63,777 nucleotides of DNA from an uncultured bacterium (GTDB lineage Bacteria > Desulfobacterota > GWC2-55-46). The DNA is taken from positions 1 through 63,777 of the forward strand of contig CAJPGC010000035.1 in the NCBI GenBank assembly GCA_905339405.1, written 5' to 3'. This document shows, piece after piece, positions 37,205-62,583 of this stretch (positions within the stretch are counted from its first letter, which is position 1; each line of letters begins with the position of its first letter). Under the pieces are notes generated by a model, which had not been told where the DNA came from, ran no database searches, and saw nothing but the letters and a program-made list of their open reading frames with translations. A program made the position numbers and the translations under genes.

Positions 37205-37241
37205 GAAAATCAGGAAAAATGTGGTCTCAAGGCGAAATAAA

Positions 37242-37275
37242 GCAAGGCCCGCCCCCTTTCGGGGACGGGCCTTGC
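37242..37275 (-). terminator. intrinsic terminator after aclA
   Basis: On the minus strand GCAAGGCCCG and CGGGCCTTGC frame an inner CCCC/GGGG pairing with a single mismatch, giving a long GC-rich stem. A T-rich stretch TTTATTTCG follows. It lies 20 bases after the aclA stop and closes the icd-aclB-aclA unit. Confidence 0.85.
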
Positions 37276-37295
37276 TGAACGGCATTTTGTCTGAG

Positions 37296-40007
37296 TTAAC
37301 CTACGAACGAGCACTTGGAGGCCGCCGTCCTGGTGTCCATGTTGCGGCCCCTGTTGATGTGGTCGTCTATCTCCGCTGCGCAGCCTATCATCCTTCCGAA
37401 GAGGAAGGTGGTAAAGGCGGCGGACTCGACTTCCCTGTCGGTCATCTTGCCGGAGTTGAACGCCTCCCAGACTATCTTGAGGAGGATTACGGCGATGACC
37501 GCGTCCACGTTTACGCAGTAGACGTTGCTGGAGACCTTGCTCTCGAAGAGCGAGCGCACGAGGTTGTGGTAGAACTCGAGGAATACGTTGTATATCCCCT
37601 TTTCCTCGAACAAGGAGGCCACGAACCTTTCCCTGGGGTCGTAGTTGACTTCCTTGCCCTTGAAGACGGGGTGGTTGACGCAGGGTATCTTTATGTACTC
37701 GATGTTGCCGAGGGACTTCTGGTCGGCCTTGTACCTGGCGTAGCCCTTCGCGTACTCGTCGGCTATGGCCTTGAGGTCAATGCCGTGCTTCTTGTTCGAC
37801 GGGTCTGCAAGCCCCTTGCCCTTGAACCTGTCGATGAGGAACGCTATGGCCTCGAAGCCGTTTCCGCCGTGTGCGAAACCGGTGTGGGTAAGGAAGCCCA
37901 CGAAGGCCTTGTTAATCTGCACCCTTGCCGGGTCCTCCGGGCCGTCCGAACTTACGGCGCCCTTTGAGCCCTGGGCCGAGATGGTGCCCGGGCCGTTGGA
38001 GATGATGAGCCCGAGGAGCATGGAAAACTCTAACCTCTCCTTTTCGGCTGGCTTCCTGCCAATGAGCGCGAGGAATGACGCGTCGGTAAAGGACCACTTG
38101 GAGATGAGCTCGTCGTTCTTAACTCCGCAGAAGCTGTCCTTCGACTGCTTTTCAGCCGGGACGCTGCACCCGACGAACGAGGAGAATATCCTCGAGTACC
38201 ACGGCAGGGCCGTAAGGGTTATCTTGGAGATGCTCCTCTTAATGAGGGGCTCCCAGCCGAGGGTCGTCCAGATGGCCGCCAGCAGCGCATCTGACGAGGG
38301 GTTGCCTCCGGCCGCTTCCTTCACGAACTCGATGAATATTGACTTCTTGCCGAGGCCGTCGACTGTCTTGAGGAGCGTCTTTGCTGCGGCGTCGTCCTTG
38401 CCCGCCGTGAGGGATTTTTTCGCTTCCGCTGAAAGGCCCTTAACGAGCGCCTTGTGGTCGAACTTGTCGGTTGCGGTCTCAATGCCTGTTCCCTGGAAGG
38501 TCTCGAGGAGGAGGCTCGAGGCGTCGAGGGCAGCCCTCACCTTGCCTTTGCCGATTATCGAGATGGCGGCTGAAAGCACGCTGTTCGGCGAGCTCTCCGC
38601 TTCCCTCGCGGCATCTGCGGCGATGTTCGCGGCTTCGCCGTTCTGGTTGAGGTACGCGTTGAAGGCGGCGTTCGCCAGATTTTTGCCGTACTCGTCCGGG
38701 TACCTCTTGAGGAGCGAGAACACGAGGTTCTCCTCGAGGGACTTCTTGGAGCAGTCGAGTATCGATACGTTATGGACCTTCGTTACCTGCGTACCGGGGT
38801 CCATCATTGACGCGGCGGAGGTGTCCTTCATCGACTGCCTCGGGAACTGCGCGCCAATTTGCTTGTTGATGTGGTCTATCTGCTCGTCGTAGGGGCTCTC
38901 TGCCTTGACGACCGTTGCGTCGAGGTCCTTGGGAAGCTTTACATTGGCGTTGCTGCCGAACCAGCACTTGAGCGAAAGGTCGCCCTTAGGCGCGAAGTCC
39001 GGCTTGATGCCGTTGAGTTCCATGACCTTGGTCAGCGCTTCCGGTATGTATGCGATGTTCGTGACGACCGCGCCCTTTTTCGATACCACAGGGTTCTGCG
39101 GCGTGTAGATTGACTTTACGCCGAAGTAGTCCATGAACCACTTCTCTTTGGCGTTCGCGTCGTCACCTGATCCCGCGAGGCTTCCGGCATGTCCGCAGGC
39201 CTTCGTGAGCCTCGCCTTCCATCTTCCCACCACGCAGGCGACCGTAGGCTTGTTTATCTCGAGCTCGTGCTCGTAGTACCCGCCCGGCTCCACGTAGATG
39301 ATTGCGCCCTTGCTCCTGTCGTCGTTATCGAGGGCGTGGAAGAACTCCCTGGGGCCGTAATGGATGTAGACGTCCTTGCCGCTGGAGACGGAGGTCGTGG
39401 TGCCCCAGCCCTTCGTGAGGAGGTAGACGGCCATCGTGGTGGTGAAGTTGCCCGAGTTCGAGAAAAGGGCTATGGAGCCCTTTACGAGCGACTCTTCGGG
39501 CTTGTTGCCGCCGAGCGCGCCGCCTATCCTGACCTGGTTCCAGGCGTCGGCCACTCCGAGGCAGTTGCCGCCGAAGACGTCTATGCCGTTGGTCTGGCAG
39601 ATGGCCCTTATTATCCTCGCGTCAGAGGCCGAGACCTTTTCCGTGAGGATGATGACCTTTTTGAGCTCCGGGTTGTGCTTTACGGCTTCGGCCACGCCGT
39701 CCTTCACACCAGAGGGCGGGAGGTAGACGACGGCTGTGTTGAACTTGAGGCCTGCTTTGAGCCCCTCTTTCACAGAGTTGTATACCGGTATCTTGCCCAG
39801 CTTCGTGTCAAGCGCCTGTCCGGACCTGCCGGGCATCGTTCCGAAAACGATGTTGCCGCCCGAGTAGATGTGGCTTACCGGCGTGACGGTGCGGCTCTCG
39901 TTGCCGAGTATGTTCAGGACGCAAACCCTGTCTTCCCTGGTCGCTATCTGGCTCAGGGTGTTGACGCCGACATAGTAAGGGAATTTTTTTACGCCTTCCT
40001 TATGCAT
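37296..40007 (-). CDS. aclA: ATP citrate lyase large (alpha) subunit, enlarged form
   Basis: 903 residues. The N-terminal half is succinyl-CoA-ligase-alpha-like, with a CoA-binding fold and the phosphohistidine motif GHAGSLAGSG (His273). The C-terminal part is a citrate-synthase-like domain aligning by eye with human ACLY: THTGFAHGGNGFEA (His708), CVNHPVFKG (His779), YCVNVDAVIAV (Asp834) and LFGRMIGCAAEI. All expected catalytic residues are present. It cleaves citrate to acetyl-CoA and oxaloacetate with ATP and CoA, together with AclB. It is about 300 residues longer than the Chlorobium-type AclA as I recall it (about 610), with an unfamiliar helical segment around 420-580. Citryl-CoA synthetase is excluded because the lyase domain is fused. 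Confidence 0.88.
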   Translation of the reverse strand: MHKEGVKKFPYYVGVNTLSQIATREDRVCVLNILGNESRTVTPVSHIYSGGNIVFGTMPGRSGQALDTKLGKIPVYNSVKEGLKAGLKFNTAVVYLPPSGVKDGVAEAVKHNPELKKVIILTEKVSASDARIIRAICQTNGIDVFGGNCLGVADAWNQVRIGGALGGNKPEESLVKGSIALFSNSGNFTTTMAVYLLTKGWGTTTSVSSGKDVYIHYGPREFFHALDNDDRSKGAIIYVEPGGYYEHELEINKPTVACVVGRWKARLTKACGHAGSLAGSGDDANAKEKWFMDYFGVKSIYTPQNPVVSKKGAVVTNIAYIPEALTKVMELNGIKPDFAPKGDLSLKCWFGSNANVKLPKDLDATVVKAESPYDEQIDHINKQIGAQFPRQSMKDTSAASMMDPGTQVTKVHNVSILDCSKKSLEENLVFSLLKRYPDEYGKNLANAAFNAYLNQNGEAANIAADAAREAESSPNSVLSAAISIIGKGKVRAALDASSLLLETFQGTGIETATDKFDHKALVKGLSAEAKKSLTAGKDDAAAKTLLKTVDGLGKKSIFIEFVKEAAGGNPSSDALLAAIWTTLGWEPLIKRSISKITLTALPWYSRIFSSFVGCSVPAEKQSKDSFCGVKNDELISKWSFTDASFLALIGRKPAEKERLEFSMLLGLIISNGPGTISAQGSKGAVSSDGPEDPARVQINKAFVGFLTHTGFAHGGNGFEAIAFLIDRFKGKGLADPSNKKHGIDLKAIADEYAKGYARYKADQKSLGNIEYIKIPCVNHPVFKGKEVNYDPRERFVASLFEEKGIYNVFLEFYHNLVRSLFESKVSSNVYCVNVDAVIAVILLKIVWEAFNSGKMTDREVESAAFTTFLFGRMIGCAAEIDDHINRGRNMDTRTAASKCSFVG

Positions 40008-40041
40008 ATCGATTCACCTTGTTGTTTTTTGTGTGTACGGG

Positions 40042-41352
40042 CTATACGCCCGCGGGCTGCTTCGCGCTCTTCTTGGCCCCTGATTCGAGCCCGAGGCTCT
40101 CGGCCACCTGCTTCCTGCCGTCCTTCTCCATCCACATGTCGATATTGAGGGCGTAGTTGACGACCTCGCTCATGGCGCTGTCGTGGCCGAATATCCTGTA
40201 AGGGAGTTTGAGGTTCTCCAGCGTGTCCCTCATGTACGACATTCCGCGTATGAGGTTCGGGCCACCCCTGCCGATGACGACGAAAAGAGGCGTCGGGCCG
40301 TAGGTGTTGAAGTGGTCGCGAAGGGCGTCGGCCATCGCCCTGAAGGTCTCGTATATGTCGGTGTTGTTCGCCTTGCCGCCGATGACGAACAGCACGTTGG
40401 ACTGCCTTATCCAGTACTTGAAGACAATCTTCGATATTTGGAACATCTTCTCGTAAGGAGGGTTGCCGCCGAAGTCCGAGGATATCGTGGCCCTCTCGCC
40501 GAGGAGCTCAGTCACCAGGGCGTTCGCGCCGCCGCCGAAAGTGGGAGCGGTGATGGTGCCCTTGGGGTTCATTACGAACACGTCGGACTGGCCCTGGTAG
40601 GTCCTCAGCTGGTTTATCTCCTGCTCGAACTCGGAGTAGTCCGACGCGAAGAGGTGCGCCGGAAGGTCTAACCTCTTCCAGGCCGGGTTGTCGATGTCGA
40701 ACGAGCACTTGAAGTCGCAGGCGACCGGCACGAGCCTTCCCTTGGCGTCAGGCATCATCCTTATGGGGTTGAGCTCGAGCGTCGAGAGACCGTAGTTGTT
40801 GTACAGCGTCCAGAGCTTCGGCAGGTTCTGCACCAGAGGGCTTATAATCTCCGGGGGCGCGCCGAGCTCGGTCAGGGCGTTTGATATGTGGAAGCTCTTG
40901 AGGCCCGTAAGCGGGTCGAAGGGCACTTCCCTTATCTTGTCCTTGGGCAGCTCCTCGATGTCCATGCCGCCGTGGTGGGTGATGGTCATCATCGGGGCCC
41001 TGTACAGGGTCGAGTCGGTTATCGAGAAGTAGACCTCGTGCTCCGCGGGCACTCCGCCCTCGAAGGTCACGCCGTCGGCCTTCGCGGAGTTGTTCCCGAA
41101 CTTGTGCTCGATGAAGTAAAGGCGCTCCTTCTCCTGGAGGGCGTGCGGGAGGTCCTTGGCCCTTCCGATGAGGCCTGATTTACCCTTCTTGCCTACGCCG
41201 CCCTTGAAGATGGGCTTTATGAATACCTGGCCGCATCTCTTGATGAGGTCTTTTATCTGGTCCACGCTCGCTTCGGGTCCGAGGACCTCCGCGTGCGGGT
41301 ATTCGACCTTTCTCAAGAGCTTGTGGCCCCAGTAGAGGCCTGTGAGCTGCAT
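40042..41352 (-). CDS. aclB: ATP citrate lyase beta (ATP-grasp) subunit
   Basis: The 436-residue protein has an ATP-grasp N-terminal domain (about 1-235; VFIKPIFKGGVGKKGKSGL, STLELNPIRM). The C-terminal citrate-binding, Rossmann-like domain contains FVIGGKANNTDIYETF and FVVIGRGGPNLIRGMSY, matching by eye the IFVRRGGPNYQEG citrate site of human ACLY. That citrate-binding region separates it from succinyl-CoA synthetase beta. It lies 47 bases after icd and 34 before aclA. Together they form one transcription unit. Confidence 0.88.
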   Translation of the reverse strand: MQLTGLYWGHKLLRKVEYPHAEVLGPEASVDQIKDLIKRCGQVFIKPIFKGGVGKKGKSGLIGRAKDLPHALQEKERLYFIEHKFGNNSAKADGVTFEGGVPAEHEVYFSITDSTLYRAPMMTITHHGGMDIEELPKDKIREVPFDPLTGLKSFHISNALTELGAPPEIISPLVQNLPKLWTLYNNYGLSTLELNPIRMMPDAKGRLVPVACDFKCSFDIDNPAWKRLDLPAHLFASDYSEFEQEINQLRTYQGQSDVFVMNPKGTITAPTFGGGANALVTELLGERATISSDFGGNPPYEKMFQISKIVFKYWIRQSNVLFVIGGKANNTDIYETFRAMADALRDHFNTYGPTPLFVVIGRGGPNLIRGMSYMRDTLENLKLPYRIFGHDSAMSEVVNYALNIDMWMEKDGRKQVAESLGLESGAKKSAKQPAGV

Positions 41353-41399
41353 AACTACCCTCCGTTGTCGTTAGTCAAATGAACGGTTCTCAAATACCG

Positions 41400-43652
<2,253 letters not shown>

Positions 43653-43733: not shown

Positions 43734-43762
43734 ACTAAAACAGATTTCCCGTGTTTTGTCAA
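43734..43762 (-). promoter_or_regulatory. possible second promoter (P2) for icd, overlapping an inverted repeat
   Basis: Minus strand TTGACA (43762-43757), 17-base spacer, TTTAGT (43739-43734, four of six matches). The -10 lies in one arm of a perfect inverted repeat, TCTGTTTT (43717-43724) and AAAACAGA (43737-43744), spaced by 12 bases, which could be an operator or an RNA stem. It is downstream of the riboswitch terminator, so it would bypass it. The -10 is weak and the call is tentative. Confidence 0.4.
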
Positions 43763-43813: not shown

Positions 43814-43874
43814 AAAAAACCGCCTGGCCGCGAAATAGCATGGCTTTTGGCCAAGCTTTTTCTGCCCAGACGGT
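43814..43874 (-). terminator. intrinsic terminator of the ZTP riboswitch expression platform
   Basis: On the minus strand ACCGTCTGG (43874-43866, part of the aptamer 3' hairpin loop and stem) can pair with CCAGGCGGT (43827-43819), nine pairs with one G-U, followed immediately by a run of T (43819-43814). The same 3' arm, as GGCCAGGC, can instead pair locally with GCTTGGCC just upstream. Ligand binding that locks the aptamer hairpin would remove the first, best-placed stem. This is the normal logic of a terminating ZTP riboswitch, but it is inferred here. Confidence 0.75.
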
Positions 43875-43942
43875 CGGCTTTGAATATTAAAGACCCCGCT
43901 CCCCGGTGGTGTCCACCTTCGTTCCGTCAGTTACGGGTGTCT
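43863..43942 (-). promoter_or_regulatory. ZTP (pfl/ZMP) riboswitch aptamer upstream of icd-aclB-aclA
   Basis: On the minus strand the segment shows, in order: P1 left arm AGACACCC; the conserved ACTGACGGAAC; a P2 stem GGTGG/CCACC with loop ACA; CCGGGGAGCG; P1 right arm GGGGTCT; an AT-rich linker; and the 3' signature GCCGACCGTCTGGGCAG. The GACGG of the first conserved block can pair with CCGTC of the last to form the family pseudoknot. This agrees closely with the ZTP riboswitch consensus as I know it, including the GCCGACCGTCTGGGC end seen in crystallised examples. Such RNAs bind ZTP/ZMP, the signal of 10-formyl-tetrahydrofolate shortage, and switch on downstream genes. A hairpin GACCG-CAAG-CGGTC sits just 5'. 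Confidence 0.88.
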
Positions 43943-43972
43943 GACCGCTTGCGGTCTATTTTGAGCGGCATT

Positions 43973-44001
43973 AGAGTAGTACAAAAGAGCTGTTTTGTCA
44001 A
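43973..44001 (-). promoter_or_regulatory. promoter P1 for the ZTP riboswitch-icd-acl transcript
   Basis: Minus strand perfect TTGACA (44001-43996), 17-base spacer and TACTCT (43978-43973; TA and final T conserved). The predicted start is near 43966, about 24 bases before the aptamer. The spacer holds an inverted repeat ACAAAA/TTTTGT (43981-43986 and 43993-43998) that could be an operator. It begins within 10 bases of the HIT gene stop, so the riboswitch transcript is probably independent of the upstream operon. Confidence 0.65.
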
Positions 44002-44008
44002 GCCCCTT

Positions 44009-44509
44009 TTAGCCGTTGGTGTCGTCTGTATCAAGCCGCTGGAAGTACGGCAGCAGCCTTGTAAGAGTGGCGAGAAGGTGTTCCGGGATGACCTTGGTGT
44101 CTGAGAGGACCGGCATGAAGTTCATATCGCCGTTCCACCTCGGCACGACGTGCGTGTGCAGGTGGTCTTCTATCCCCGCGCCAGCGGCCCTGCCGACGTT
44201 CATGCCTATGTTGAACCCGGCCGGGTTTAATTCCTTTTTGAGGACGGTGACCGAGTGGCGGAGCAGCCTGAAGAAATCAAGGGCCTCTTCAGGCGTGAGC
44301 TCCTCGACGTTGGCGACGTGGCGCTGCGGCGCGATCATCAGGTGGGCGCTGTTGTAGGGAAACTTGTTGAGCATCACCAGAGAGACCGCTCCGTTGAAGA
44401 GCACGAGGCCTTCTTCGGGGCTTTTCTTGCGGGCGGCGCAGAATATGCACCCGCCCGGGTCTCCTGACTGGACGTACTCGGAGCGCCAGGGGGCCCACAG
44501 CTGCTTCAC
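44009..44509 (-). CDS. HIT-domain protein
   Basis: The 166-residue protein has the histidine triad EDHLHTHVVPRW (His116, His118, His120) and an N-terminal zinc-type pair CIFC (Cys21, Cys24), a layout seen in Ap4A phosphorylase-like HIT proteins. Members hydrolyse or phosphorolyse dinucleoside polyphosphates or AMP-linked compounds; the substrate here is unknown. It overlaps ihfB by 4 bases and ends the rpsA-sppA-ihfB operon. No U-run terminator is seen between its stop and the P1 promoter. Confidence 0.88.
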   Translation of the reverse strand: MKQLWAPWRSEYVQSGDPGGCIFCAARKKSPEEGLVLFNGAVSLVMLNKFPYNSAHLMIAPQRHVANVEELTPEEALDFFRLLRHSVTVLKKELNPAGFNIGMNVGRAAGAGIEDHLHTHVVPRWNGDMNFMPVLSDTKVIPEHLLATLTRLLPYFQRLDTDDTNG

Positions 44510-62507: not shown

Positions 62508-62583
62508 TGGAGCGGGAGACGGGGCTCGAACCCGCGACCTCAACCTTGGCAAGGTTGCGCTCTACCAACTGAGCTACTCCCGC
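62508..62583 (-). tRNA. tRNA-Gly (anticodon GCC)
   Basis: A 76-base cloverleaf on the minus strand. Acceptor GCGGGAG/CTCCCGC, D arm GCTC...GAGC, anticodon arm CAACC-TTGCCAA-GGTTG with anticodon GCC, T arm GCGGG-TTCGAGC-CCCGT, discriminator T, and an encoded CCA end. It reads GGC/GGT glycine codons. It is followed by fur on the same strand. Confidence 0.97.

Follow-up and report, generated by a model that had tools for sequence, protein, structure and literature searches.

A predicted ZTP riboswitch precedes icd and ATP citrate lyase–like genes in an uncultured class of Desulfobacterota

The icd-acl locus

We analyzed a stretch of 63,777 nucleotides (hereafter the window; contig CAJPGC010000035.1 of assembly GCA_905339405.1) from an uncultured bacterium of the GTDB lineage Bacteria; Desulfobacterota; GWC2-55-46. 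The minus strand of the window carries a three-gene operon with its leader, whose features are listed below in the direction of transcription.

44009-44509, minus strand: HIT-domain gene (PF01230), upstream of and outside the operon, with its stop just ahead of promoter P1
43973-44001, minus strand: predicted promoter P1, TTGACA (44001-43996), 17 nt, TACTCT (43978-43973), predicted start ~43966
43857-43944, minus strand: ZTP/ZMP (pfl) riboswitch aptamer, RF01750, by covariance match and covariation
43925-43928, minus strand: pseudoknot 5' strand GACG, pairing with CGUC at 43872-43869
43864-43878, minus strand: P3 element GCCGACCGUCUGGGC, including CCGUCUGG (43873-43866), which is also terminator 5' arm
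43814-43874, minus strand: intrinsic terminator, ACCGUCUGG (43874-43866) paired with CCAGGCGGU (43827-43819), U tract 43819-43814
43734-43762, minus strand: promoter-like site P2, TTGACA (43762-43757), 17 nt, TTTAGT (43739-43734), predicted start ~43727
43629-43634, minus strand: Shine-Dalgarno sequence of icd, AGGAGG, read from the sequence
41400-43619, minus strand: icd, monomeric NADP-dependent isocitrate dehydrogenase (IDH), 739 aa (TIGR00178, PF03971)
40042-41352, minus strand: ATP citrate lyase (ACL)-like ATP-grasp/citrate-binding subunit, 436 aa (PF16114 and PF08442 above cut-off)
37296-40007, minus strand: ACL-like large subunit, 903 aa, with an N-terminal CoA-binding/ligase domain containing GHAG and a C-terminal part weakly resembling citrate synthase and citryl-CoA lyase
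37241-37276, minus strand: operon-end intrinsic terminator, 16-pair stem

The region 39900-41500, which covers both intergenic gaps of the operon, showed neither a promoter nor a minus-strand terminator. The original prediction had placed on this strand a ZTP/pfl aptamer, a promoter ahead of it and a terminator overlapping it, followed by icd, the small and the large acl subunit and a closing terminator. All of these were recovered, with profile matches agreeing with the proposed gene order, and our analysis added P2 and two further ZTP riboswitches in the same genome.

Aptamer and competing terminator

The RF01750 covariance model, whose use had been suggested with the original prediction, matched 43944-43857 of the minus strand over its full length (positions 1-86), scoring 56.3 bits where the gathering cut-off is 39 (E 1.8e-6, 63.8 kb searched against 4227 families). 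In an alignment of 42 aptamers from the window's class and other classes, the covariation score was 0.312 compared with 0.151 after shuffling, 91% of the known-structure cells were paired, and both-side changes numbered 82 versus 24 in shuffles. Such changes occurred in 7 of 10 pairs of helix P1 and in all 3 pairs of outer helix P2 (helices of the aptamer, not the promoters of the same names), while helix P3 was 98% paired with one-sided changes, and the blocks that define RF01750 were invariant or nearly so. The pseudoknot is GACG:CGUC here versus GGCG:CGCC in most aptamers of other classes, a difference of a single pair (alignment columns 18/92) that showed 10 both-side changes and was A-U in 31 aptamers, G-C in 10 and unpaired in none; A-U is the form of the window's class and G-C that of most other classes.

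The usual purine or one-carbon target, which is not a defining requirement of the family, is absent at this locus, where icd-acl stands instead, and is present behind a sister aptamer of the same genome (L034, see below). The genome encodes PurH, from which production and use of ZMP in this organism are expected, and it encodes Fhs in two pieces. These sequence features are those of a standard ZTP riboswitch, for which we infer ZMP/ZTP as the ligand.

The terminator is built into the aptamer. Its 5' arm, ACCGUCUGG, consists of the P3 loop and the P3 3' strand, and its 3' arm, CCAGGCGGU, runs into UUUUUU; CCGUCUGG and CCAGGCGG are the partners in the competing pairing, and the terminator and P3/pseudoknot are mutually exclusive folds. 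The 71-nt terminator hairpin had a predicted energy of -33.1 kcal/mol (z -4.0), and none of 200 shuffled sequences was equally stable. A terminator whose 5' arm starts inside P3/pseudoknot was found at 98 of the 101 aptamers examined. With the aptamer folded, the downstream sequence can still form a weaker hairpin two bases ahead of the U tract, and read-through may therefore be incomplete.

This layout, with P1-J1/2-P2 and P3, an H-type pseudoknot and a terminator invading P3/pseudoknot, resembles that of the Clostridium beijerinckii pfl and Thermosinus carboxydivorans ZTP switches, both of which are ON switches (PMC10085676, PMC7337938). In the C. beijerinckii switch, the ligand stops the terminator strand from invading P3 and the pseudoknot (PMC10085676). 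Because the architecture is the same as in that characterized switch, we infer by homology that the direction of switching here is also ON.

Conservation of the riboswitch at icd

To place the locus in its class, 63 genomes were sampled, the DNA around 100 aptamer matches was retrieved, and the downstream genes were sorted, with gene identities taken from NCBIfam and Pfam for representatives and from sequence reading for the rest. At least one ZTP aptamer was present in 47 of the 63 genomes. When icd leaders of relatives were compared, as had also been proposed at the outset, the riboswitch was found in 35 of the 44 readable leaders of the class, including all 22 in the window's family, and was not detected in the other 9. 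The 35 include the icd aptamer of genome G061, which was absent from the Rfam search output and was recovered by a model built here (R1); a weak model match of 18 bits at the icd start of G054 was left out of the count. Recurrence at 35 loci together with a competing terminator, added to the E value in the window itself, refutes a chance covariance match in a chance neighbourhood, to which we assign a negligible probability.

In an IDH tree (midpoint root, 300 columns, many weak forks), riboswitch-bearing icd genes fell into two groups, one formed by families f1, f11, f8, and f3 and the other by f4 and f7, with the IDHs of other phyla clustering with the former. In genome G051 the gene behind the switch encodes an IDH of the non-homologous Iso_dh type, with the ACL-like genes next in line, and in G040 it lies directly ahead of the ACL-like genes while icd stands elsewhere without a switch. 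The two IDH groups and these two genomes argue for a link between the switch and the citrate/isocitrate step, and against one with a single gene lineage. Among 80 monomeric-IDH loci from named genomes, which served as a negative control set, an aptamer was found only at L133; this locus is labelled as a groundwater Deltaproteobacteria MAG, and G020, a member of the window's family, has an identical IDH fragment. The upstream neighbours vary among loci while the switch stays. Since the arrangement is so widely kept (35/44 leaders), riboswitch control of the icd-acl operon is very likely on comparative grounds.

Tandem promoters

Promoter P1 has a perfect -35 hexamer and a weak -10 hexamer (TACTCT), and an automatic scan found TTGACA-17-TAnnnT in the same position in 24 of 33 icd leaders. 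P2 lies downstream of the terminator and upstream of icd. Defined as a TTGACA-like hexamer followed after 16-18 nt by one resembling a -10 element, it was present in 22 of 33 icd leaders, compared with 1.5 expected from shuffled leaders; the L038 and L056 leaders also carry P2 and fall outside the 22 since start-codon choice clipped them. A P2-like site was seen in none of 20 aminotransferase-serA operon leaders and in 5 of 29 rnf leaders (1.2 expected). A sigma-70 scan alone reported neither P1 nor P2, whose -10 hexamers are poor or do not satisfy the rules of the scan. No P2 was detected in several icd leaders, among them those of G006, G008, G009, G017, G031, G043, and G055, and in such genomes the riboswitch may be the only gate for icd.

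The conserved P2 block reads TTGACAAAac.cggaaAaT.TGgTTtAgT.aatgcctCaAaAA. Its conservation spans the spacer and runs beyond the -10 hexamer (GGAAAATCTGGTTTAGTCAATGCCTCAAAA), exceeding what a bare promoter needs, and the extended block may include an operator.

The good conservation of P2 between terminator and icd, and the end of the HIT gene just ahead of P1, would fit an arrangement in which the aptamer-terminator does no more than stop leakage from P1 or the HIT operon, leaving P2 to drive essentially all icd-acl expression and the riboswitch with no effective influence on citrate cleavage. We consider this improbable: the switch is kept at 35 of 44 icd loci, several of which have no detected P2, it has a promoter of its own, it persists where upstream neighbours change, and in the rnf and serA operons of the same genomes the switch and P1 are generally not accompanied by P2. 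P2 could still dominate and make the switch minor. The simplest reading of the sequences is a pair of tandem promoters, with P2 basal or separately regulated and P1 subject to ZTP. As P2 is conserved beyond the terminator, riboswitch control would then probably be partial, added to a basal level. The control of icd-acl that had originally been predicted is upheld as very likely, with the qualification that P2 would give a riboswitch-independent start in most genera.

Identity of the operon genes

The first gene was assigned with a TIGR00178 match of 1342.7 bits over residues 3-738, together with PF03971. For both ACL-like proteins, the best solved relatives are subunits of citryl-CoA synthetase. 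The closest structure to the 436-aa protein is the large subunit 6hxq_B (E 8e-37), and the 903-aa protein matched 6hxq_A (E 1.4e-32) as well as PF02629 and PF13607; its C271-G-H-A-G275 is invariant, and GHAG at 272-275 aligns with the GHAG of 6hxq_A. Compared with 6hxq, the 903-aa protein has ~600 extra residues with a weakly citryl-CoA-lyase-like end, which suggests a fused ACL in which synthetase and lyase are not separate enzymes. With a 19-sequence profile, the C-terminal part gave weak matches to citrate synthase (1iom, E 0.012) and citryl-CoA lyase (6hxp, E 0.052). Both matches, from two related folds, land on the same residues, and this coincidence suggests that the protein is a fused, very divergent ACL. 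AlphaFold2 models made without an alignment had pLDDT values of 37.6 for the whole protein and 36.4 for the C-terminal 309 aa, too low for a fold search. L189 had been considered as a canonical ACL reference and was dropped, as its protein is SucD-like.

A divergent ACL has been described before. Nitrospina gracilis, which is described as a reductive TCA (rTCA) autotroph, has two ACL genes that share very little similarity with validated ACLs and carry CoA-binding and ATP-grasp domains (PMC3578206), and the pair found here resembles them as far as the published description goes.

The switch might control an operon that does not belong to the rTCA cycle, either because the ACL-like pair does something else or because citrate cleavage feeds acetyl-CoA supply and not CO2 fixation. 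The C-terminal half of the large subunit matches citrate synthase and citryl-CoA lyase only at E 0.012-0.052, a normal citrate synthase is encoded in the genome, and the 2-oxoglutarate:ferredoxin oxidoreductase of the same genome (NF006412, 2-oxoacid:acceptor oxidoreductase subunit alpha, 563 bits, G000:C1:75221, with 2-oxoglutarate as the presumed substrate) has no ZTP switch. However, that oxidoreductase is encoded at all, the small subunit combines citrate-binding PF16114 with ATP-grasp, the relationship to citryl-CoA synthetase extends to both proteins and to the invariant GHAG, the weak C-terminal matches coincide, the genes sit in an operon behind icd, and N. gracilis, described as running the cycle, likewise has highly dissimilar ACL genes. 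We therefore hold a role outside the rTCA cycle to be unlikely, although it carries real weight. From sequence, citrate cleavage by the ACL-like pair is likely and reductive CO2 fixation in this organism is plausible. The earlier naming of ATP citrate lyase holds for the ATP-grasp/citrate-binding and CoA-ligase domains and is weaker for the lyase domain, which is divergent and only weakly recognizable. The description of a reductive TCA operon whose switch raises carbon fixation is not supported as stated, with a divergent ACL and a citrate synthase in the same genome, and both parts stay conditional here.

Sister riboswitches and other classes

The window's genome contains three ZTP aptamers. 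Besides that of icd, one (L033, G000:C34:72440-80000, aptamer at 1501-1592) lies ahead of rnfC-D-G-E-A-B and one (L034, G000:C42:31740-39300, aptamer at 1501-1584) ahead of class V aminotransferase-serA-hisZ-purA, each with a terminator overlapping P3. Across the class, rnfC occurred with the riboswitch 30 times and without it 27 times (25 versus 2 in the window's family), and aminotransferase-serA 20 and 32 times (20 versus 6 in the family). The targets in the class grouped into icd-aclB-aclA, rnf, aminotransferase-serA-hisZ-purA, a CPA2 antiporter, a pntA-type transhydrogenase, kup, and, in family f11, sucC-sucD. The target proposed originally, icd-acl, is thus real but not isolated, being one arm of a set that includes Rnf, serine/purine synthesis, transhydrogenase, and others. 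Judged from gene content, this set would form a regulon over carbon, electron, and one-carbon metabolism.

Some of these loci can be specified further. The aptamer precedes sucC-sucD at L115, L120, L124, and L127 of family f11, and at L115 and L120 genes for a 2-oxoacid:ferredoxin oxidoreductase come next, which puts one more rTCA step under a ZTP switch. Aptamers before the pntA-type transhydrogenase, kup, and the CPA2 cation:proton antiporter were found at L116, L123, and L113 of f11 and at L058, L073, L085, L088, and L098 of genus g10.

ZTP aptamers were present in 25 of 395 genomes sampled from the phylum; these 25 include 11 from outside the window's class. The readable ones among the 13 sites outside the class (L213-L225) precede, by sequence reading, glyA, fhs, aminotransferase-serA-purA, or an aminotransferase gene with def-fmt, and no icd, acl, or rnf was seen behind them. 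These switches share the aptamer found here, and some share the aminotransferase-serA-purA target. Since the serA-purA link is common to other classes and icd-acl and rnf are unseen there, the latter associations look like additions made within the class. At L225 (G391) the aptamer is followed by the aminotransferase gene and then def and fmt; the fmt product uses 10-formyl-tetrahydrofolate (10-formyl-THF).

A variant aptamer with another ligand, for example a central-carbon metabolite, would explain the unusual target genes and could be connected with the class-wide replacement of G-C by A-U at one pseudoknot pair. We give this very little credence: the change is compensatory, the RF01750-defining blocks are (nearly) invariant, aminotransferase-serA-hisZ-purA, a frequent target of the sister switches, agrees with ZTP logic, and outside the class such aptamers, including L216 and L219 with the same A-U pair as the window's class, precede fhs, glyA, and serA-purA.

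Proposed mechanism and physiological role

We are confident, short of certainty, that the locus carries an ordinary ZTP/ZMP ON switch before icd and two ACL-like genes, that P2 provides a basal supply, and that the switch belongs to a class-wide ZTP regulon. RNA started at P1 would fold the aptamer. With ZMP or ZTP bound, P3 and the pseudoknot would withstand invasion by CCAGGCGGU and polymerase would read into the operon; without ligand, the CCAGGCGGU strand would capture CCGUCUGG and the terminator would form near 43814. P2, lying past the terminator, would give a ligand-independent supply to which ZTP control adds. In the class, the same switch would also act on rnf and aminotransferase-serA-hisZ-purA, whose leaders mostly lack a second promoter; pnt, sucCD-kor, kup, and cation-antiporter genes would come under it in certain members. 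Most likely, ZMP/ZTP would build up when 10-formyl-THF or its carbon source runs short and would raise icd-acl above the P2 level.

It would make sense for a single ZTP signal to raise carbon entry (icd-acl, sucCD-kor), reducing power (rnf, pnt), and serine/purine synthesis, because the serine-derived one-carbon units of an autotroph need fixed carbon. More tentatively, and leaning slightly towards doubt, we propose that the folate-stress alarmone ZTP acts in this class as a general signal of fixed-carbon and one-carbon shortage, with one riboswitch class raising citrate cleavage, isocitrate formation, Rnf, transhydrogenase, and serine/purine synthesis together and P2 giving the rTCA arm its basal level. 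If so, autotrophic metabolism in an uncultured bacterial class would in effect have an RNA-run controller, and, with a conserved set of switches before citrate cleavage, icd, Rnf, and transhydrogenase, ZTP could report the status of central carbon and reducing power. This would offer a directly testable route to the setting of carbon flux in uncultured groundwater bacteria.

Reported targets of ZTP switches are purH, fhs, pfl, glyA, folD, and similar purine and one-carbon genes (PMC2864571); the switches described here differ in having icd-acl, rnf, and others as targets and, at icd, a second promoter past the terminator. In the literature searched, we found no published ZTP riboswitch linked to citrate lyase or carbon fixation and no published riboswitch tied to the reductive TCA cycle and ATP citrate lyase; among papers on riboswitches and the rTCA cycle, none indicated such a link in its title or the start of its abstract. 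As far as this search reached, the icd-acl switch would be the first example of a riboswitch linked to ATP citrate lyase. The RNA and its mechanism are already known, and what appears new in that literature is the target set and the conserved tandem-promoter layout.

Additional observations

The expression platform of the window, GCTTGGCCAAAAGCCA (43857-43814), is near-identical to those of L119, L121, L122, and L125 of family f11 and differs in relatives closer to the window than f11, making a transfer of the leader-icd unit between the window's lineage and f11 possible. At L095 (G027:C37:60146-62311), the icd gene behind a well-kept aptamer has five stop codons, which reflect either decay or assembly errors. 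Elsewhere in the window, a tRNA-Gly (gcc) gene is located at 62508-62583 on the minus strand.
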